Source: Acidimicrobiales bacterium (GTDB lineage: Bacteria > Actinomycetota > Acidimicrobiia > Acidimicrobiales > MedAcidi-G1). From it: a stretch of DNA of 33,035 bases. Positions within the stretch are counted from its first letter, which is position 1. Each line of letters starts with the position of its first letter. The translations under genes were made by a program, and so were the position numbers. The notes beneath the pieces were generated by a model. It was not told where the DNA came from and searched no databases. It saw only the letters and a program-made list of their open reading frames with translations. The DNA lies in NCBI GenBank assembly GCA_030747775.1, contig JASLKB010000008.1:1-33035 (forward strand). Reading direction: 5' to 3'. Positions 12,139-26,760 of this stretch are shown piece after piece.

Positions 12139-14157
12139 TCAGCGCCGGGAACGCACTGTCCGACGCTGTTCGACGAAGTCCAACAGCACATAGTCGCCCA
12201 GTTCCCGGTTGTCGGTCATGAAAGCCCGTCCACCGTTCAGGCGAGTGACTTGCTCGATAAACCTCGTCAGGTACGGGGTGGCGTCCAACATGAACACGTT
12301 GATCCGGATGTCATCGCGGGTGCAGCGCTGAACCTCCCGCAGAGTGCGATCCACCGTCTCGGCGGTCGGCGGGTAGTTGAACAATGGTCGGCCGTCGTCG
12401 TTCAGGTGTGCCGTGGGTTCCCCGTCGGTGACCATGATGATCTGGCGGTTGCCGGGCTGGCCAGTCAGCATCCGACGCGCCAGTGCAAAGCCGTGCTGCA
12501 TGTTCGTGCCGTACACGTAGTCCCATGACACCTCAGGCAGCCGTTCGGGCTGGATCTCCCGGGCTACCTCACTGAACGTCACCACCCCCAGGTAGTCGCG
12601 TGGGTACTGGCTGGCCATCAACTGGTGAAGGGCCATAGCCGTCTTCTTGGCCGGCAGGAAGTTGCCTCGCATCGGCATGGAGAGCGACAGGTCCAACATG
12701 AGTACGGTGGACGCCTGCACCTCCGACTCGGTGCGTTCAATGGCGAAGTCGTCCACGACCAGCGACACCGGGATGCCCTGTCCATTTCTGGCCACCGCGT
12801 TGCGCACCGTGGCCTGGATGTCCAGGTCGAAAGGGTCGCCGTACTCCCATGGCCGAGTGGTGTACTCCCGCTCGTGACCGACGCCGTCCTGCGACTGGTC
12901 GTGGCGACCCGCCCGGTCCCGGTCAAGCCGTCGGTACAAGTCACCGAGGGCGTTCTGTCCGAGCCGTCGGATTGCCCGTGGCGTGAGCTGCAGCCTCCCC
13001 TCGACCTGTTCGACCAGCCCAGCCTCGGTAAGCATCCCTGTTAGGTCGGCCAGCCGGTCGAGGCTGTCGGCAACCTCGTCGTCAAGCAGATCGCGTACCC
13101 GATCAACATCCACCTCCGCCAGCGCTCCAGGTGATGTCGCGGCCCGCAGCATCTGCTCCAGTCGGTCCAGATCGGCCAGCTCTTCCATGGCCGCCATGGC
13201 CTCCCCCAGGCCGATGGGCTGGTCTCCGGTGAACTCGCGGGACTCCTCCCAACCCATGCCAGGAAACAGGTCATGAAGGGCGTCGCCCAGTTGGCTGACC
13301 TGCCATGAGAGATCTAGATCCTCCAACAATTGGTCGGAGAGCGCCTGGATCTGCTGCTGCTGCTCGGGGGACATTGAGTTCATGACCTGAGCCATGGCGG
13401 CCATGCGGCGGGCCATGGCCTCCAGCAACTCGTCGAGGGTCCGCGGGTTCTCGGGGAAGAAATCGCTGAACCGCTCCATGAAGTCAACGAACGCCCGCTG
13501 CTCCTCGGCCGGGTCAACGCCATCACGTCGCCGATCAAGCATGGCGTTCAACTCGGCCAGCATCTCGGTCATCCGGGTTCGGTCCTCGGGCGTGGTCTGC
13601 CCAGCGGCCTCGGTGACCTGGTCAACGAACTGCTGGGTGAGCTGGTTGCGAAGCGTTTCGAGGAGCTCCTCGAAACGTCGACTGGCCTCCCCGGAGAGGA
13701 ACTGATGGTTCTGGAGACCCCGGACCCGGCCTGCTAAGTCCTCATGGTCCAACAGAGCCAGATCGTCGCTAGCCGCCCTGTGAGCGGGCTCTCCCGATGC
13801 GTTCAACGCAGCACGTTCGGTCTCAACCACCTCGCGCAGCGCTTCATCGACCTTGGCAAAAACCCCGCCCAGGTCATCACGCTCCAGGCGTTCCCGGCGA
13901 GCGTCCCGCAGACGCTCCAGAATCTCCCTAATCCCCTGGAGGCGTTGTCCATCCACCTCCAAGCCCTGCCGCAGCATCCGGCGGAGTGCAGCCTCGGGGT
14001 CACCGTGTTCGATCAGCTCGTCCCCCATGGCCTTCAGAAGGGCATCGGCATCCATGTCGGGGACCTGCTGGGTGCCATCCCACCGGGAGTAGGTGGCCCG
14101 ATGGGCCGTGGGGCCGCGCCGGCGACCCGACCTCCATGGCCTCGACAAGCGGGCCAT
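12139..14157 (-). CDS. vWA-domain protein, partner type of MoxR/magnesium-chelatase-like ATPases
   Basis: A 672-residue protein. The N-terminal two thirds are helical and charged and begin with YSRWDGTQ and LLKAMGDELIEHGDPEAALRRM, like the mycobacterial Rv0959 family. The C-terminal third is a von Willebrand A domain with the MIDAS motif LMLDLSLSMPMRG (Asp near residue 489) and the later metal-site segment MVTDGEPTAH. Such proteins act with a MoxR-type AAA+ ATPase as a chaperone or metal-insertion machine in the cytoplasm. The ATPase expected as partner is encoded 2.3 kb away on the same strand (16435-17940) with two plus-strand genes between. ATG 14157 has AGG at spacing 7; GTG 14172 is an alternative start. 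Confidence 0.87.
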   Translation of the reverse strand: MARLSRPWRSGRRRGPTAHRATYSRWDGTQQVPDMDADALLKAMGDELIEHGDPEAALRRMLRQGLEVDGQRLQGIREILERLRDARRERLERDDLGGVFAKVDEALREVVETERAALNASGEPAHRAASDDLALLDHEDLAGRVRGLQNHQFLSGEASRRFEELLETLRNQLTQQFVDQVTEAAGQTTPEDRTRMTEMLAELNAMLDRRRDGVDPAEEQRAFVDFMERFSDFFPENPRTLDELLEAMARRMAAMAQVMNSMSPEQQQQIQALSDQLLEDLDLSWQVSQLGDALHDLFPGMGWEESREFTGDQPIGLGEAMAAMEELADLDRLEQMLRAATSPGALAEVDVDRVRDLLDDEVADSLDRLADLTGMLTEAGLVEQVEGRLQLTPRAIRRLGQNALGDLYRRLDRDRAGRHDQSQDGVGHEREYTTRPWEYGDPFDLDIQATVRNAVARNGQGIPVSLVVDDFAIERTESEVQASTVLMLDLSLSMPMRGNFLPAKKTAMALHQLMASQYPRDYLGVVTFSEVAREIQPERLPEVSWDYVYGTNMQHGFALARRMLTGQPGNRQIIMVTDGEPTAHLNDDGRPLFNYPPTAETVDRTLREVQRCTRDDIRINVFMLDATPYLTRFIEQVTRLNGGRAFMTDNRELGDYVLLDFVEQRRTVRSRR

Positions 14158-14300
14158 CAACGAACCTGCCACCGTTGAGCCAAAGCCGGATTCGGATCCT
14201 CCACCGATCGGACCGTAGCGTCACCTAGGGAGCCAGTCCGATGACCGGCGCCGACCGTCTGCCACCAGGTCGACGGGACCACGAGCCCAGGGGAGTCAAC

Positions 14301-15146
14301 ATGCCCATCAACCCGGAAGCCGTCGGATCGGTTGGCGAACCGACCGAGATCTCTTGGACCTCCAAACAGAGTCTGATCTACGCCCTAGGCATCGGTGCCG
14401 GCGTAGCCGACCCCACGGGCTTCGAGTTGGAGTTCACCACCGAAAACTCCGACGGGGTCACCCAACGGGCTTTCCCCACCCAGGGTGTGGTGATGGGCGG
14501 CGGCGGTACCCCCGACTTCGGGAGCTTCAACCCGGTGTTCCTCCTGCACGCGGAGCAGGCCATCACCTGCCACCGGGAAATTCCCGCGACGGGTAAGGGC
14601 ATCGCTACCGGGCGGGTCGGGAACATCTGGGATAAGGGCAAGGCAGCCCTCGTCTACCTAGAGACCGATGTGACCGACCCAGACGGTGAACCGCTCTGGT
14701 CCACCAGTGCCGGCCTATTCCTCGGTGGGGAGGGCGGGTGGGGTGGCGATCGCGGACCATCTAACGACTGGGAGGCCCCCGATCGGAACCCCGACCACGT
14801 GGTCTCTTACGCAACCCGCTCCGACCAAGCCCTCCTGTACCGGCTCAGTGGCGACCGCAACCCGCTGCACTCCGATCCGACGTTCGCGTCAGCTGCCGGC
14901 TTCGACACGCCAATACTCCACGGGCTGTGTACCTATGGGTTCACCGGCCGCGCGCTCCTGCACGCCACCTGTGGCTCAGATCCGGCACGCTTCGCCGATA
15001 TGGCTGGGCGGTTCAAGTCCCCGGTCACACCCGGCGAGGTACTCGAGGTCCACGCCTGGGAGGTCGACGATGCCACCGTGCTGTTCCAGACCCGAGTCGG
15101 CGACAGGGTGGTGTTCGACGCCGGCGTGATGACCCGCCGGCACTAA
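14301..15146 (+). CDS. MaoC-type (R)-enoyl-CoA hydratase, hydratase 2 family
   Basis: A 281-residue double hot-dog protein. The C-terminal half has the hydratase-2 motif YRLSGDRNPLHSDPTFA followed by AAGFDTPILHGLCTYGFTGRALL, with the catalytic Asp and His in GDRNPLHSDP. The N-terminal half (from MPINPEAVGSVGEPTEISWTSK) is the degenerate first hot-dog domain typical of this family. It hydrates trans-2-enoyl-CoA to (R)-3-hydroxyacyl-CoA in fatty-acid or sterol side-chain breakdown. ATG 14301 is fixed by GGGGAG six bases upstream; the open frame extends to 14241 without support. The GH1-like gene follows 25 bases later. Confidence 0.9.
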   Translation: MPINPEAVGSVGEPTEISWTSKQSLIYALGIGAGVADPTGFELEFTTENSDGVTQRAFPTQGVVMGGGGTPDFGSFNPVFLLHAEQAITCHREIPATGKGIATGRVGNIWDKGKAALVYLETDVTDPDGEPLWSTSAGLFLGGEGGWGGDRGPSNDWEAPDRNPDHVVSYATRSDQALLYRLSGDRNPLHSDPTFASAAGFDTPILHGLCTYGFTGRALLHATCGSDPARFADMAGRFKSPVTPGEVLEVHAWEVDDATVLFQTRVGDRVVFDAGVMTRRH

Positions 15147-15171: not shown

Positions 15172-16425
15172 ATGAGCCTGCCCGCTGATTTCCGGTGGGG
15201 AGTGACCGATTCCTCGCTGTCGGCCGAAGGGGTGGCTCCAGCGGCCGACTGGTCCCGCTGGGAACGCGACGGCCGAGTACCGGTCTCCGGTGACGGGGCC
15301 GGGTTTGCTAGCGATTACAACGACGATCTCCGGCTGGCCGCCGCTCTGGGCTTCCTCGACATCCGTATCACCGTCGAGTGGGCCCGGCTCGAACCAAGCC
15401 CCGGGAAAGTCGATACCGATGCTCTGGAAAGTACCCGCGAGGTTCTGGTCGCCGCGAGCCACGCTGGGCTCAGGCCATGGGCCACATTGGTCCACAGCAC
15501 GCTGCCCGGCTGGTTCGCAGACGATGAACGAGGCTTCGCTGATCCCTCTAGTCGGAGCGGCTGGTGGGCACGGCACGTAGACCGGACCGCTGAGGCGCTT
15601 GAGGATCTGGTGGCCGGTTGGGTACCCATCGAGGACCCGATCGGCTTGGCCCTCCGGGGCCACCTCCTAGGAGTCCGGCCGCCCGGGCGGACCGACCCCG
15701 AGGCCGCCCGGGCGGCCGTGGAGGGCTCATTGGAGGCAACCTTCGAAGCCTGGCGCCTCCTGCGCAGCGGCCCGGCACCTGTCATGGGCGTGTTTTCCAC
15801 TCCGTCGATCTTCGCTGCGGCCTCCCGGGAGGGAGCCGGAGGGAGCCAGGCCCGCGACCAAGCTGACCACTGGGAACGCGTGCTGTGGGACCCTTGGCTG
15901 CGCGCCCTGGCCGACGGGGAACTGGCTTGGCCGTGGCGCGCACCGGTCGACCGGCCCGAGCTAGCCGGCGCCTTCGACCTGGTGGGTCTGGCGGCCGACC
16001 ACCCTGTGGCCGTTGACGCTTCCGGAGCCGCCGGTCCCTACCCGCCCGACGCGCGGATTGACGCCTCCAACTGTGCTCCCCTTCCCGAGGAGCTCGGTGT
16101 GGCCCTCCGGCGCGTTCACGATCGCCTCGGCGACCAGGACCTCATAGTTGCTGGTTGGGGAGTGTCGACAACCGACGACGACTGGCGAGACGAATTGCTC
16201 CACGATGTCGTCACCCAAGTGGAATCGGCAGTTGCCGACGGAGTACCGGTGGTGGGCCTTTTCCACGACGGGTTGCTGGACGGCTACACCACCGCGGGGT
16301 GGGGTTCTATCCCAGGCTTCTCAGGACCCCGTGGGCTGGTGACGAGGAACCGCCGCCTCAAGGAAAGCGGGCGCTGGCTGTCCGAGCGCATCACCGGCCG
16401 TCCGCCAGTGGGCTCACTCTCCTGA
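15172..16425 (+). CDS. GH1-like (beta-glucosidase fold) protein lacking the catalytic glutamates
   Basis: A 417-residue protein that follows the family 1 glycoside hydrolase plan from end to end: FRWGVTDSSLSAEG at the start (family: WG-x5-Q-x-EG), SDYNDDLRLAAALGF, ITVEWARLEPSPGKVD, ATLVHSTLPGWFAD, and near the end DGVPVVGLFHDGLLDGYTTAGW. The two active-site motifs are changed. TLNEP is PIEDP, with Asp155 at the acid/base place. ITENG is VAGWG, with Gly328 where the nucleophile Glu should be. The sugar-binding Gln of the N-terminal motif is also Ser. Retaining hydrolysis by the usual mechanism should be impossible. The gene is intact with no frameshift, so a binding or regulatory role is more likely than decay. 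It follows the maoC gene and is convergent with the MoxR gene (9-base gap). Confidence 0.82.
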   Translation: MSLPADFRWGVTDSSLSAEGVAPAADWSRWERDGRVPVSGDGAGFASDYNDDLRLAAALGFLDIRITVEWARLEPSPGKVDTDALESTREVLVAASHAGLRPWATLVHSTLPGWFADDERGFADPSSRSGWWARHVDRTAEALEDLVAGWVPIEDPIGLALRGHLLGVRPPGRTDPEAARAAVEGSLEATFEAWRLLRSGPAPVMGVFSTPSIFAAASREGAGGSQARDQADHWERVLWDPWLRALADGELAWPWRAPVDRPELAGAFDLVGLAADHPVAVDASGAAGPYPPDARIDASNCAPLPEELGVALRRVHDRLGDQDLIVAGWGVSTTDDDWRDELLHDVVTQVESAVADGVPVVGLFHDGLLDGYTTAGWGSIPGFSGPRGLVTRNRRLKESGRWLSERITGRPPVGSLS

Positions 16426-16434
16426 GGCGAATCG

Positions 16435-17940
16435 CTACTTACCGGTAGCCGCCACGGGGCCCGATGGACCACCGGGGCCCTGTGCACGGGACTCCGCCCC
16501 TCTCGACGAGTACCGGGAGTGAGAGCCAGAGGTCCTCTTGTTGAGCCGCTTAGACAGGTGCAGACCCTCCAGCACCAATTCGAGGGCACTGGCCAGCAGC
16601 ACCGGCGCAACAACGGAAACGCTTTCCGGTTCATCACCCAGAACGACGGTGACTGCAGTGGCCAGGGCCGGAATCTCGTCAAGTACCTCGGCGTAGGCCC
16701 CAGCACCCAGGTCGTCGCCAGTGGCCACCCCGTCGTGAGCGTCGAACGCCTCCACCACACCACGGTGCAGGTCGCCGGGAACCAGGTCCCGGAACACCGA
16801 CAGCACTGCGGCCTGCACGATGCGCATCAGGATCTCGCCGTCACGGTCCTCGTCCAGGCTGTCCACCTCGACCTTTCCGGCCATGGCCGCCGGCAGAGCC
16901 TCAAGGTCAGATACCCGGGGTACGGCCACCGACTCCCCTGCCCTGACCGCCCGCCGCACGGCACTGGCCGCCAACGCCTCCTGACATGCCAGTGACATGC
17001 GAACCGACACTCCGGACCGCTGGTTCAGGTGCGGACTCCTACGAGCCTCCTGGGCGATGGTGGCCACCAGCCGGGTCATGAAGTCGGGCACCACCACCTC
17101 CACCCCGTCGACTGCAGGGATAGTGGCCTCCTGAATCACGATGTCCATCTCGACGTCAGCGTCCAACGGGTAGTGAGTGCGAATCTGAGAGCCGAACCGG
17201 TCCTTGAGCGGGGTGATGATGCGACCTCGGTTGGTGTAGTCCTCCGGGTTAGCCGAGGCGAACAGCACCACATCCAACGGCAAACGCACCCGGTGACCCC
17301 GGATCTGGACATCGCGTTCCTCAAGCACGTTTAACAGGCCGACCTGGATCCGTTCGGCCAGGTCGGGCAGTTCGTTGATGGCGAACAGACCACGGTTGCA
17401 GCGCGGTACTAGGCCGTAGTGGATGGTCAGTTCGTCGGACAGGTACCGCCCCTCAGCCACCTTGATGGGGTCTACCTCACCGATGAGGTCGGCAATAGAG
17501 GTATCCGGAGTGGCCAACTTCTCGCCGTACCGGTCGCTGCGATGCACCCAGCTCAGCGGCGTGTCGTCACCCTCGGCCGCCACTAGTTCCTGGGCGTACC
17601 GCGACACGGGTGCGTACGGGTCGTCGTTGATTTCAGACCCGGACACGATCGGCATCCACTCGTCCAGCAGTTCGGTGAGGCCACGAATGAGCCGCGTCTT
17701 AGCCTGCCCGCGCTCACCGAGAAAGATGACGTCATGCCCGGCCAGCAGGGCGTTCTCCAACTGGGGAAGCACCGTGTCGTCATACCCGATGACGTCGGCG
17801 AATAGAGGGTCGCCAATCCGGATACGGGCTACCGCGTTGCGGCGAAGTTCGGCCGAAACAGAGACCGACTCCCACCCGCCAGCTCGCAACTCACCGATAG
17901 TCGACGCCAGGGAGGTGGGCAGCATCATGGCGAGCACCAT
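16435..17940 (-). CDS. MoxR/magnesium-chelatase-type AAA+ ATPase
   Basis: A 501-residue AAA+ protein close in plan to mycobacterial Rv0958. Walker A is GERGQAKT (residues 75-82). Walker B is GLFAINE (184-190), with Asn in place of the first acidic residue, as I recall for this subfamily. Sensor 1 is FASANPEDYTNRGRI (about 227-241), followed by TPLKDRFG with an arginine. These ATPases work with a vWA partner to remodel proteins or insert metals; the vWA gene at 12139-14157 is the likely partner. The C-terminal 40 residues are Ser/Gly/Arg-rich and disordered. The start is ATG 17940, with an AGGA ten bases upstream; two ATGs shortly after are alternatives. It is divergent from the GH2-like gene with 46 bases between. 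Confidence 0.88.
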   Translation of the reverse strand: MVLAMMLPTSLASTIGELRAGGWESVSVSAELRRNAVARIRIGDPLFADVIGYDDTVLPQLENALLAGHDVIFLGERGQAKTRLIRGLTELLDEWMPIVSGSEINDDPYAPVSRYAQELVAAEGDDTPLSWVHRSDRYGEKLATPDTSIADLIGEVDPIKVAEGRYLSDELTIHYGLVPRCNRGLFAINELPDLAERIQVGLLNVLEERDVQIRGHRVRLPLDVVLFASANPEDYTNRGRIITPLKDRFGSQIRTHYPLDADVEMDIVIQEATIPAVDGVEVVVPDFMTRLVATIAQEARRSPHLNQRSGVSVRMSLACQEALAASAVRRAVRAGESVAVPRVSDLEALPAAMAGKVEVDSLDEDRDGEILMRIVQAAVLSVFRDLVPGDLHRGVVEAFDAHDGVATGDDLGAGAYAEVLDEIPALATAVTVVLGDEPESVSVVAPVLLASALELVLEGLHLSKRLNKRTSGSHSRYSSRGAESRAQGPGGPSGPVAATGK

Positions 17941-17986: not shown

Positions 17987-20176
17987 ATGGCGTATCCACA
18001 AGCTGACGAACCAGACATGGTGGATGTTGGGATGCTCCCCGGTCCGTGGCGAGCTGTTGAGGCCGACGAGACGCTCCGTCGGGACTTTCCGCTCGAGAAC
18101 CTCGACGACGAGGACTGGCCCGAGGTCGTCGTGCCCGGGGCGTGGCGCAGTAACCCGACTTTCACCGATGCCGATGGGCCGCTGCTTTACCGCACCCGCT
18201 TCACCACTAGCACCCCCGTACCTGACCGGCGGACCTTCCTGGAGTTCGCCGGTGTCACCGTGCAGGGCGACGTGTGGCTGGACGGCTCTTACCTGGGACC
18301 AACTGAGGGTTCGTTCGTCCCTCATCTGCTGGAGGTCACAAGAGCGGCCCGTGCTCGCTCGGACCACCTGCTGGCCGTGGAAGTGACCTGTCCACCCATC
18401 GGCAATCCGGACGAGAAACGGACCCTGACCGGCACCACCCAGAGCGGTCGAGGTATCGCCCCGTGGAACCCGGGCGGCATCGGACGCCCAGTGAGACTGC
18501 GCGAGACCGGTCCCGTCACCCTGTTCCACGTTCGAATGGTCTGTACCCGGGCCACGGAATCTGTGGCCACACTGGCCTTCCGGGCCGTGGTCCACACAGA
18601 CCGGCCGCGGGCCGTGGTGTTTCACACCCGGGTCCGGGGTATCGACCACCGACACCGCCAGCCTCTGGCCGGTGGTGAGAACCGGGTGGAGTGGTCGGTC
18701 AGGGTCCCCCGTCCCCCACTGTGGTGGCCCAATGAGATGGGTGAGCAACCACTGCACGACGTGGAACTAGAGATCACCACCGAGGACGGCCGGACCAGCG
18801 ACCGTGTGGTGCGGCGAACCGGCTTTCGGTCGGTCCGGATGCAGGACCACGTGTGGTCGATCAATGGGGAACGAATCTTCCTGCGGGGCGCCATCGTCCC
18901 GCCGCTGGACCGTGACCTGGCCCGAGTGACTGCGGCTTCGGCCGCTGACGATCTTGGCCTAGCCCGTGACGCCGGACTGAACCTGCTCCGGATTGTGGGA
19001 CACGTCTCGGCCCCCGCCTTATATGACGAGGCAGACCGGACCGGGATGCTGCTGTGGCAGGACCTACCGTTGACCGGCGGCTACCACCGGGGAATTCGCG
19101 GTCAGGCAGCAGACCAAGCCCGCGCCGCTGTCGACCTACTGGGGCACCATCCGTCGGTAGCGGTCTGGTGTGGCCACGACGCCCCTGACTCCGTGGATCG
19201 GACCCGGGCCGTCCCTCGCCAGATGGACCAGCAACTTCCGAACTGGAACCGCACTGTGCTGGACCGCACGGTGCGTCGTGCCCTCGTTCAAGCAGATCCG
19301 TCCCGCCCAGTGGTCAGTCACACGGGGGTGCTGCCCAACCCCCCTCTCGTTGACGACGCGACCGGACAACTCTGGTTCGGGTGGTACAGCGGGCGCCGGG
19401 GCGACTTGGCGGACTACGTGGACCGGGTACGACGAGCCGGTCGGTTCGTGTCAGCCTTCGGTTCGCAGTCGATTCCCGAGGGATCACCCGCCCTGTCCGA
19501 CGGAACGTTGGACCCTGGCAAATGGCCCAACGTGGACATAGAACGCCTAGCCCGCGACTACGGCGCCGAAGCCGACGTGCTGGTCCGCCGCTTTCCCCCC
19601 GCCGACCGGTCGGGACCCGACGAATGGGCGGCCGACACTCGGCGACACCAGGACCGCCTGCTGCGGATCCAGATCGAGGCTCTGCGTCGACGCAAGTATC
19701 AGCCCACCGGTGGGTTTACTCTGGACCGCCTGTTGGATGGGGCGCCAGCGGTGTCAGGAGCGCTGGTCGACCACCAACGGGTCCACAAGCTGGCATACGT
19801 AACGGTGACCAACGCGTGCGCACCAACCATCGTGGTGGCTGACCCACCGCTGGAGTCCATCGCCCCCCGATCTAACGTTCTGGTCCGAGTAGTGGTGATT
19901 CATGACGGTCGCTATCCCATCGAGAGGTGTCGGGTGGACGCCCGGGTGCTGCTCCCCGGCCAGCAGCCGTACGATGAAGAATCGTCTTCGGATGGCGAAC
20001 CCGCCGTTACCCGTTCGTGGGGCGGAGCCCTGGAGGCCGACTCGGTCACCCCGATCGGCACCGTCGAGTTGGAACTAGCGGACGCCATCGGTGTGGTAGT
20101 CCTCGAACTGGAACTGTCCGTCGACGGCGAGATGCTGGCCACCAACCGGTACGAGGGTCGCATCGGGTCCGACTGA
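17987..20176 (+). CDS. GH2-like (beta-mannosidase-type) protein lacking both catalytic glutamates
   Basis: A 729-residue protein with GH2 architecture: a sugar-binding jelly roll (LPGPWRAVEAD and VVVPGAWR, then QGDVWLDGSYLGPTEGSFVPHLLEVT), an immunoglobulin-like domain (GGIGRPVRL to RRTGFRSV), and a TIM barrel starting at INGERIFLRGAIVPP with LLRIVGHVSAPALYDEADRTGMLLWQDLPL. The acid/base motif normally ending WCGNNE or WCGHNE reads WCGHDA (Ala399). The nucleophile motif SEFGxQSxP reads SAFGSQSIP (Ala490). The 91-residue spacing is right for the family, so these are true aligned positions. Both glutamates are alanine, so hydrolysis is not expected. There is no signal peptide. A C-terminal beta domain (about 600-729) follows. 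The gene is intact and under apparent selection. Confidence 0.85.
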   Translation: MAYPQADEPDMVDVGMLPGPWRAVEADETLRRDFPLENLDDEDWPEVVVPGAWRSNPTFTDADGPLLYRTRFTTSTPVPDRRTFLEFAGVTVQGDVWLDGSYLGPTEGSFVPHLLEVTRAARARSDHLLAVEVTCPPIGNPDEKRTLTGTTQSGRGIAPWNPGGIGRPVRLRETGPVTLFHVRMVCTRATESVATLAFRAVVHTDRPRAVVFHTRVRGIDHRHRQPLAGGENRVEWSVRVPRPPLWWPNEMGEQPLHDVELEITTEDGRTSDRVVRRTGFRSVRMQDHVWSINGERIFLRGAIVPPLDRDLARVTAASAADDLGLARDAGLNLLRIVGHVSAPALYDEADRTGMLLWQDLPLTGGYHRGIRGQAADQARAAVDLLGHHPSVAVWCGHDAPDSVDRTRAVPRQMDQQLPNWNRTVLDRTVRRALVQADPSRPVVSHTGVLPNPPLVDDATGQLWFGWYSGRRGDLADYVDRVRRAGRFVSAFGSQSIPEGSPALSDGTLDPGKWPNVDIERLARDYGAEADVLVRRFPPADRSGPDEWAADTRRHQDRLLRIQIEALRRRKYQPTGGFTLDRLLDGAPAVSGALVDHQRVHKLAYVTVTNACAPTIVVADPPLESIAPRSNVLVRVVVIHDGRYPIERCRVDARVLLPGQQPYDEESSSDGEPAVTRSWGGALEADSVTPIGTVELELADAIGVVVLELELSVDGEMLATNRYEGRIGSD

Positions 20177-20259: not shown

Positions 20260-20295
20260 CCCTCCCGTCGTGCCGGGGTCGGCACACAAGGAGGG
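20260..20295 (+). promoter_or_regulatory. Hairpin enclosing the sdhC Shine-Dalgarno sequence
   Basis: CCCTCC (20260-20265) pairs fully with GGAGGG (20290-20295), which is the Shine-Dalgarno sequence of sdhC. Inside, GTGCCG (20270-20275) pairs with CGGCAC (20280-20285) around a GGGT tetraloop, leaving a symmetric 4x4 internal loop (CGTC/ACAA). Twelve perfect base pairs close the ribosome binding site, three bases before the ATG. This predicts translational control of the succinate dehydrogenase operon by a protein, small RNA or transcript coupling. Confidence 0.6.
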
Positions 20296-20298
20296 AAC

Positions 20299-21138
20299 AT
20301 GGCCCAGACCACTGAGCAGCGCTACCGCGTGGCACCGGTCCGACCCCGTGGCCGCCAGTGGCCGTTTCCGCTGAACCTCTACCAGAGCGCGGTGGGTCGT
20401 AAGTGGGTCATGGCCGTGACTGGAATCGGTCTCATCGGGTTCGTGCTAGTCCACATGGTCGGCAACCTGCACGTGTACGAGGGCCCAGCCCGGATGTATG
20501 AGTACGCCGAGTCGCTTCGTACCCTGGGCGGAGGACTGGTGCCCACCTCCACCATCCTCTGGCTTATGCGAGCGGGCCTGCTGTCGATGTTCGTCCTGCA
20601 CCTGCACTCGGCCATCACCCTCAGCCGGATGAGTGGCAACGCCAGCGAGAAGGCCACCATGGTCAGCGGTGCCAAGAAATACGAGGGCGGGCGCGACCAC
20701 GTGGCGGCCACCTACGCCAGCCGGACCATGCGCTGGACTGGACCGATCATCGCCCTGTTCGTGCTGTATCACCTAGCTGACCTGACCTGGGGCTGGTGGC
20801 TGGGCGACGACTTCGTGGCCGGGGACCCGTACCACAACGTGGCCACCTCGCTCAGTGCGCTGCCCGTGGCCATCCTCTACGTGGTGGCCAACATGGCTCT
20901 GGCCTGGCACATATTCCACGGCTCCTGGTCGATGTTCCAGAGCCTCGGGGTGAACAACCCCCGCTACAACCACCTACGGCGCGCTGTGGCCACCAGCCTG
21001 GCTGGTCTGATCCTGGTCGGGAACCTGAGCTTTCCCATCCTCACCCAGGCCGGCGTGATCGACGAGGACGGACGCCAGTGTCCAATCGGCAAGGTAGAGG
21101 GCAACGCCTGTCTCGCTGAGCAGGCATCGGAACACTGA
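20299..21138 (+). CDS. sdhC: Succinate dehydrogenase cytochrome b558-type membrane anchor
   Basis: A 279-residue membrane protein with five hydrophobic segments and conserved histidines that can hold haem b: [39 protein letters not shown] and [13 protein letters not shown]. This is the single-subunit anchor of the Bacillus-like b558 family, which explains why no separate sdhD is present. It carries electrons from the SdhB clusters to quinone. ATG 20299 has a perfect AAGGAGG just upstream; the longer open frame is a shadow overlapping the GH2-like gene. It is the first gene of sdhCAB. The Shine-Dalgarno sequence is inside a hairpin, see 20260-20295. Confidence 0.93.
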
Positions 21139-21178: not shown

Positions 21179-23134
<1,956 letters not shown>

Positions 23135-23164: not shown

Positions 23165-23962
23165 ATGTCTTCAGGAACCAATTCCTCAAAACATGGTGAC
23201 ACCATCGACGTAACTCTCAAGGTGTGGCGCCAGGCCGGGCTGGTTGACACCGGTCGGTTCGAGGTCTACCAGCAGACCATCAGCACCGACGCCTCGTTTC
23301 TCGAAATGCTCGACCAGTTGAACGAGCAACTCAACGACGATGGCGCCGAACCGGTCGCCTTCGAAAGCGACTGCCGCGAGGGCATCTGCGGTACATGCGG
23401 AGTGATGATCAACGGGCGGGCCCATGGTCCACAGAAGGCCACCGCAACCTGCCAACTGCACATGCGAGAGTTCCGGGACGGCGACGAGATAGTCATCGAA
23501 CCGTTCCGCGCCGCCGGCTTCCCGGTGGTCCGCGACCTGGCAGTGGATCGCTCGCCGCTGGACCGCGTGATCGAGGCTGGGGGTTACATCTCGGTCAACA
23601 CCGGTGCAGCCTCGGACGCCAACCTCACGCCGGTACCCAAGGTGGCTGCCGATATGGCGTTCGATGCTGCGGCGTGTATTGGTTGCGGTGCTTGTGTGGC
23701 CGCTTGCCCGAATTCGGCGGCCCAGTTATTCACGTCGGCCAAGATCGGCCACCTCGGGCTCCTACCTCAGGGCCAGGCTGAGCGGTGGAGCCGTACCGAG
23801 GCCATGGTCGAGACCATGGAGGAGTTCTTCGGCTCGTGCACCAACCACGGAGAGTGCTCCGAGGCGTGTCCAAAAGAGATCTCGCTGGACTTCATTGCCT
23901 TCATGAACAGGGACTACATGAAGGCCAAGGTCAAGAACCGGGCGCTAGCCGGCCAACGTTGA
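23165..23962 (+). CDS. sdhB: Succinate dehydrogenase iron-sulfur subunit
   Basis: A 265-residue protein with all three cluster sites: a [2Fe-2S] plant-type ferredoxin domain (C70, C75, C78, C96), a [4Fe-4S] site (C171, C174, C177, C181) and a [3Fe-4S]-type site (C225, C231, C235). It passes electrons from SdhA to the haem/quinone anchor. AGAGGAA precedes the ATG. It is the last gene of the operon; a GC hairpin suitable as terminator lies 80 bases after the stop (24042-24061). Confidence 0.95.
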
Positions 23963-25830: not shown

Positions 25831-26760
25831 GTGGCCAGCCATCCAGCAACCGACCCCCGTTCGTTCCTCGGGTTAGTCGGCCGGGGCGCGGCAATGGGGG
25901 CCGCCGATGTGGTTCCCGGGGTGTCCGGCGGCACTGTCGCCCTCCTAACTGGCATCTACGACCGCCTGATCGGCAACATCGGAATCGGGGCTCGCTCCAT
26001 CGGTCGACTGGTCAGAGCCGACCTCCGCGGGGCGATCCGTCAACTAGGTCGAGTCGAGTGGGGCTTCCTGATCCCCGTCGGGGTCGGCCTGCTGGCTGCC
26101 GTGGTCCTCCTGGCCGGGGTGATCGAGGAGGCGCTCATCGAGCATCCCGAACCCATGGCTGGGCTGTTCCTCGGCCTGGTCGTCGCCTCAGTGCTGATCG
26201 CCGGGCGGGGCGTGGAGTGGACACCCGGTCGGCTGACCACTGCAGGACTCGTGGGCGTGGCCCTGTTCGTGGCCCTCGGCTGGCAGGGCGCCCCGGTGGC
26301 CGACCCGGGGGGGCCTGCCTTATTCGGGGCCGGGGCGGTGGCTATCTGCGCCATGATCCTGCCCGGTGTGTCCGGGTCGTTCCTACTGCTCATGATGGGC
26401 ATGTACGCCACGTTGATCGACATCATCGACGACCGTCTGCTGGTTGACGCCGCGGTTTTCGGGGCCGGCGCGGTCTTCGGGCTGGCCTGTTTCTCCACCC
26501 TGCTAGCGCGTCTGTTAGCCGACCATCCCCACGAGGTACTGGCCGTCATGGTGGGCCTGCTGCTGGGCTCGACCCGCGTACTCTGGCCGTGGCCCCATGG
26601 CGTGGGCGTGGTCAGCCGCCACACCGGCGAGACCGTCTCGGGAACCGGTTTGGGCTGGCCCGATGCGGCCAGTGGCCTGGTGTCGCCCACCCTCCTGGCC
26701 ATGATCGCGATGGCCCTGGTGCTGGTAATCGATCGACTAGCCCGGGGCTCCGACCACTAG
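25831..26760 (+). CDS. DUF368 membrane protein (polyprenyl-phosphate transporter family)
   Basis: A 309-residue membrane protein with the DUF368 signature near the N-terminus (RGAAMGAADVVPGVSGGTVALLTGIYDRLI) and its inverted partner motif in the second half (AICAMILPGVSGSFLLLMMGMYATLI). About eight to nine helices are visible. DUF368 proteins have been described as undecaprenyl-phosphate translocases that recycle the lipid carrier for cell-wall synthesis. The start is GTG 25831, 11 bases after the thioesterase. It converges with the unknown gene at 26931. Confidence 0.9.
   Translation: MASHPATDPRSFLGLVGRGAAMGAADVVPGVSGGTVALLTGIYDRLIGNIGIGARSIGRLVRADLRGAIRQLGRVEWGFLIPVGVGLLAAVVLLAGVIEEALIEHPEPMAGLFLGLVVASVLIAGRGVEWTPGRLTTAGLVGVALFVALGWQGAPVADPGGPALFGAGAVAICAMILPGVSGSFLLLMMGMYATLIDIIDDRLLVDAAVFGAGAVFGLACFSTLLARLLADHPHEVLAVMVGLLLGSTRVLWPWPHGVGVVSRHTGETVSGTGLGWPDAASGLVSPTLLAMIAMALVLVIDRLARGSDH

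Follow-up and report, generated by a model that had tools for sequence, protein, structure and literature searches.

An asparagine preceding the acid/base glutamate is a hallmark of clan GH-A glycosidases, and an arginine of barrel strand 2 assists the nucleophile. The pseudoglycosidases known are isolated cases, mostly from animals. In klotho, dead GH1-like domains bind sugar-mimicking motifs (PMC7828330). Among the GH2 enzymes themselves the nucleophile glutamate is invariant across 23 subfamilies (PMC12243196). A MoxR-type AAA+ protein and a VWA protein, RavA and ViaA, act on fumarate reductase in Escherichia coli (PMC10585395). In the literature searched, neither GH2 nor GH1 pseudoenzymes are reported from Acidimicrobiia, and the locus described below is not reported either, which is weak evidence of absence.

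The window, by which we mean the whole stretch of 33,035 nucleotides that was analysed, encodes a GH2-like protein with the following features (f1 denotes the family to which the genome of the window belongs):

17987-20176, forward strand: GH2-like protein of 729 residues, very likely a pseudoglycosidase; ATG start, no internal stops, possible start at 18032 (M16)
18434-18463, forward strand: replaced substrate loop, TTQSGRGIAP where the presumably active relatives have QHWDCLDPDW
18989-18991, forward strand: codon 335, Arg on barrel strand 2, invariant (145/145 orthologues)
19076-19087, forward strand: codons 364-367, with Gly364 (Trp in the presumably active relatives) and His367, both fixed in f1
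19178-19180, forward strand: codon 398, Asp, invariant in f1, where clan GH-A has the Asn preceding the acid/base residue
19181-19183, forward strand: codon 399, Ala at the position of the acid/base Glu; drifting among A, T, S, G, V and N in f1
19454-19456, forward strand: codon 490, Ala where the nucleophile Glu would be, in 27/27 of f1
19724-19726, forward strand: codon 580, Asp fixed in f1; the presumably active relatives have Phe here, at the strand-8 end

Because homology begins at about residue 16-17, M16 may be the true start. The sequence-only reading had described an intact protein, free of frameshifts, in which both catalytic glutamates of a GH2 enzyme are replaced by alanine. The open reading frame agrees with this description. 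WCGHDA occupies residues 394-399 and SAFG residues 489-492, A399 and A490 being 91 residues apart, and in phmmer alignments the two fall on the corresponding catalytic motifs, acid/base and nucleophile, of the solved beta-mannosidases 5n6u, 6byg and 6byi. When the protein is aligned independently with 58 GH2 proteins, mostly from Bacteroidales, columns 399 and 490 hold Glu in at least 90% of the rows.

The GH2 N-terminal and immunoglobulin-like domains are present, with matches to PF22666 (29.6 bits) and PF00703 (30.2 bits), both above the cut-off; the threshold of PF02836 was reached neither by this protein nor by 26 of 32 intact relatives. The best solved relatives are GH2 beta-mannosidases (5n6u, phmmer E 1.7e-23). 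The structure predicted from 62 aligned sequences, which is of middling quality (mean pLDDT 65, pTM 0.71; residues 447-542, A490 included, below 50), has the GH2 fold over residues ~44-729, with a TIM barrel in GH2 architecture, and Foldseek and VIA match it to solved GH2 enzymes at Z ~22. It superposes on the beta-mannosidases, a comparison that had been proposed from the sequence.

Of the features expected in a retaining GH2 enzyme, the protein keeps the strand-2 arginine (R335), and lacks the nucleophile glutamate (Ala490) and the Asn-Glu pair (Asp398-Ala399). Since every active GH2 subfamily has an invariant nucleophile glutamate, the protein should be unable to act as a retaining glycosidase, and it is very likely non-hydrolytic. 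A hidden replacement glutamate, which would have undermined the early reading, was sought and rejected: no Glu close to position 399 or 490 is invariant in f1.

Among 36 genomes tested in f1, 27 carry the gene. Both glutamates are absent and the frame is open in all 27, with Ala invariably at position 490 and A, T, S, G, V or N at position 399. Whether a clade shares the Ala/Ala pair had been posed as a check; the double loss and Ala490 are shared across f1, and position 399 drifts. The genomes are mostly fragmented, and metagenome-assembled where this is recorded, so that an artefact of alignment, assembly or sequencing deserves consideration. With 27 independent genomes concordant, the motifs and their spacing intact and the phmmer, MAFFT and tblastn alignments in agreement, such an artefact is scarcely conceivable: the concordance speaks against both a sequencing or assembly error and a single odd strain.

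In the order Acidimicrobiales, 232 of 397 genomes have a match to the gene. The orthologue set comprises 145 syntenic sequences from many families across the order; 70 have both glutamates and 75 lack one or both. The former are presumably active enzymes. Relatives from another class of the phylum, ~30-31% identical, also have both glutamates, which indicates that the active-looking state is ancestral; the orthologues and this outgroup together support descent of the window protein from an active glycosidase. Glutamate in close homologues had been named as a finding that would speak against the proposal. It is not seen within f1 and is seen in more distant orthologues of the order, where it points to repeated loss from an active ancestor and does not refute the proposal. 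The observation of glutamate loss was right but understated.

In a tree built without the trait columns, parsimony requires 15 or more switches between the intact and the disabled state. With regain forbidden, the minimum becomes 18 separate losses; for the nucleophile the figure is 15, and for the acid/base residue it is 13. A single loss giving rise to one dead clade was rejected: in a 27-row set, a tree constrained to place every nucleophile-loser in a single clade is worse by 600 log-likelihood units (p-AU 7e-111). Losses nest within well-supported intact clades, for example in families f3, f14, f16 and f28; the trees are quick ones made with one substitution matrix, and nesting within families is independent of the deep branches. 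Among the copies of this one syntenic bacterial gene there are some that look active, some that are half disabled and some that are fully disabled.

The neighbouring genes in the window are:

12139-14172, reverse strand: protein with a VWA domain that probably pairs with the AAA+ ATPase
14241-15146, forward strand: MaoC-type hydratase, in the conserved neighbourhood of several families
15172-16425, forward strand: GH1-like protein of 417 residues, NEP changed to EDP (E154-D155), nucleophile Glu replaced by Gly328
16435-17940, reverse strand: ChlI/MoxR-like AAA+ ATPase, oriented divergently to the GH2-like gene, with the annotated starts 46 bp apart
20299-21138, forward strand: sdhC; a longer ORF runs from 20017, true start approximately 20290-20380
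21179-23134, forward strand: sdhA
23165-23962, forward strand: sdhB

The order-wide arrangement is VWA, (MaoC), (GH1-like), AAA+, then divergently the GH2-like gene and sdhCAB. In loci with enough sequence, the AAA+ gene lies upstream of the GH2-like gene in 95 of 101 and SdhA downstream in 75 of 93. A polyprenyl-phosphate transporter-like gene (25831-26760, forward strand; PF04018), downstream of sdhB in the window, is often found in the same neighbourhood. At ten loci the downstream SdhA is only 28-30% identical; at the single one of these for which the type was determined, L032:9462-11345, it is of another succinate dehydrogenase type (TIGR01816, 863 bits) than in the window. Occurrence of a second SdhA type at GH2 loci suggests either a link with complex II or an ancient tandem.

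The AAA+ neighbour matches AAA_5 and Mg-chelatase models, and its PDB matches are ChlI-type Mg-chelatase chains only, not RavA. Together with the VWA gene it is conserved across the order next to sdhCAB, as a chelatase- or chaperone-like pair; there may be a link to Rv0958/Rv0959. In genus g2 (L257-L260) the GH2-like gene and sdhCAB are kept and AAA, VWA and GH1-like are absent, and for this genus the AAA protein was accordingly rejected as an obligatory partner. In genus g3 of f1 (L283 and L284) the GH1-like and GH2-like genes are jointly absent, and MaoC, AAA and sdhC are adjacent, in that order. The gene set of g2 indicates that no single neighbour is obligatory for the GH2-like protein, and the conserved synteny may reflect slow rearrangement only.

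The GH2-like gene is missing from two genera of f1 and is hence dispensable. This absence, and the fact that several pocket columns are more variable than in intact relatives, would fit a decaying gene under relaxed selection whose loss is pending. We consider this very unlikely. The 27 frames are open across a deep divergence (48-100% identity); dN/dS, estimated from unsaturated pairs only as many pairs are saturated, is 0.15-0.22, against 0.16 in an intact pair; and the ratio of GH2-like to AAA protein distance is 1.78 in f1 versus 1.55-4.5 in Glu/Glu families, so that the rate relative to the AAA gene is not raised. New residues have, moreover, been fixed. The disabled protein is under purifying selection with no visible acceleration, as had been supposed from its preserved frame; by dN/dS and relative rates, catalytic residues were lost and the protein was kept by selection.

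Families f35 and f18, placed near f1, lack the nucleophile and mostly keep E399. Column 399 changed once over a tree length of 5.9 in f35 and f18 together, versus eight times over 4.9 in f1, where it is among the fastest tenth of columns. Constraint in the former and drift in the latter indicate that, in this part of the tree, nucleophile loss most likely preceded acid/base loss, and that E399 most likely stayed useful for some time afterwards and is no longer so in f1. In f35 and f18 (L204, L212, L214, L159, L165, L181, L231; L040, L222, L228 and others) an Asp mostly precedes the kept acid/base Glu; f3 too has orthologues without the nucleophile in which E399 is kept. These proteins could use a nucleophile-free chemistry.

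The change at position 398 is recurrent. N398 is kept in 63 of 70 intact versus 9 of 75 disabled proteins, and N398D accompanies nucleophile loss in about seven of 11 independent pairs, with fewer than one against (sign test p ~0.03). Asp398 may restore the counter-charge lost by Arg335; the alternative is a changed chemistry. A re-tooled enzyme, in which D398 and D580 with H367 and R335 perform a different reaction, and in which D398-E399 form a substrate-assisted pair where E399 is kept, would explain the invariance of D398, H367 and D580 in 27/27 of f1, the recurrence of N398D after nucleophile loss and the constraint on E399 thereafter in f35 and f18; GH20 enzymes employ such an Asp-Glu pair (PMC4752478). 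For the window protein we regard it as quite unlikely, because N398D is equally expected from charge compensation of R335 once E490 is gone, and because the loss of E399 in f1 makes the substrate-assisted version inapplicable.

In mannosidases a WDWxP loop lies in the region matching QHWDCLDPDW, the loop which most intact members share ahead of NPGGIW. In f1 this loop reads TTQ[S/G]GRGIAP or a close variant, and each of the remaining disabled families has a version of its own; the intact families f28, f54 and f59 also deviate from the consensus. Besides the loop, f1 has lost W364, H337 and the beta-8 aromatic F580, and many of its members lack Y92, Y109 and W166, while G364, H367, D398, A490 and D580 are fixed in 27/27. 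Of 14 residues that f1 has fixed and that intact proteins rarely have, five fall in barrel-end pocket segments, which make up 63 of the 729 positions (p 0.004, or p 0.04 against invariant columns only, the segments having been defined after the residues were seen). As a lead, this enrichment points to a rebuilt pocket and not to a kept sugar site.

The remodelling bears on the proposal, made from the sequence alone, that the protein binds glycans. A lectin-like protein, which has given up hydrolysis and retained ancestral sugar binding, would have gone the way of other known pseudoglycosidases, YKL-39 among them (PMC7828330), and R335, H339, W394, H397 and W466 are indeed kept. Nevertheless the replaced sub-site residues listed above run against it, and no carbohydrate-transport or polysaccharide gene was recognised beside the GH2-like gene, the dead GH1-like gene apart. 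We hold glycan binding of this kind to be unlikely. The combination of a dismantled sugar sub-site with newly fixed pocket residues suggests instead a pocket that has come to bind some other ligand or a partner protein. With moderate confidence we favour a vertically inherited GH2 pseudoglycosidase which is maintained by selection and whose rebuilt pocket would have acquired such a binding role.

The GH1-like protein, encoded two genes upstream, is by its sequence a second pseudoglycosidase: it has neither the NEP acid/base motif nor the ENG nucleophile glutamate of GH1 enzymes, and it matches TIGR03356 at 97 bits, far under the cut-off of 478. Its predicted structure (pLDDT 35) was useless. 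Among the sampled genomes the syntenic GH1-like protein is intact in seven, all with an intact and none with a disabled GH2-like protein; it is disabled in nine genomes with intact and in 28 with disabled GH2-like protein, 13 of the latter outside f1. Outside f1 the two states are associated (Fisher p 0.008, uncorrected for relatedness). The nesting of the states suggests that the GH1-like protein was usually disabled before the GH2-like one. A search of the window's genome with PF02836, PF00232 and protein queries yielded no further GH1 or GH2 at the thresholds used; PF02836 is insensitive to the GH2-like clade, and the protein search carries the weight of this negative. The GH2-like protein as a regulator of an active paralogue in the same genome was rejected on this result.

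The course of events was as follows. The ancestral orthologue at the locus possessed both catalytic glutamates. In the lineage of the window the nucleophile disappeared, the adjoining Asn changed to Asp, and the acid/base Glu also disappeared, most likely afterwards, with the whole protein remaining under purifying selection. Neither the GH1-like nor the GH2-like protein has an evident signal peptide in its N-terminus, for which reason both are probably cytosolic, and the pair has probably been repurposed to a non-hydrolytic, probably cytosolic role. The f1 pocket would bind another ligand or a protein partner as the dead GH1 pocket of klotho does, and it is possibly connected with the adjacent AAA+/VWA pair or with succinate dehydrogenase.

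A bolder and rather unlikely extension is that both proteins were recruited to one shared non-glycosidase function and for this reason repeatedly lost their catalytic glutamates across the order, with recurrent Asn-to-acid changes beside the acid/base residue in each and with intermediates that were possibly substrate-assisted and nucleophile-free. If true, the shared function might be ligand sensing in the cytosol, or a partnership with the AAA+/VWA pair or with succinate dehydrogenase. The range of states, the repeated losses, their order and a neighbour from a second GH family that fared alike make the path from enzyme to non-enzyme accessible to comparative and experimental tests. The GH2 and GH1 annotations in marine Acidimicrobiales would overstate their capacity for sugar degradation.

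Compared with the GH2 beta-mannosidases (5n6u, 2je8 Man2A and 6byc), the GH2-like protein has a common fold (Z ~22, 590-610 aligned residues, 4.1-4.9 A rmsd) and equal motif spacing, and these enzymes are also the top sequence matches for a profile of the intact relatives. It differs by the absence of both catalytic glutamates, of the Asn before the acid/base residue and of the sub-site loop, at ~18-22% identity. With the RavA-ViaA system the locus shares an AAA+/VWA gene pair that adjoins genes for succinate dehydrogenase; the AAA+ protein is, however, closer to ChlI, and in genus g2 the GH2-like gene stands at a locus that has neither AAA nor VWA. Chitinase-like proteins (YKL-39, GH18) likewise lost activity while the protein was kept, but they retain chitooligosaccharide binding, whereas in the GH2-like protein the sugar sub-site is dismantled. 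Klotho also has a clan GH-A fold devoid of the catalytic glutamates and kept by selection, and a GH1-like case is found at the present locus too. Klothos are animal membrane receptors, whereas the proteins described here are bacterial, have no evident signal peptide, and combine GH2 with GH1.
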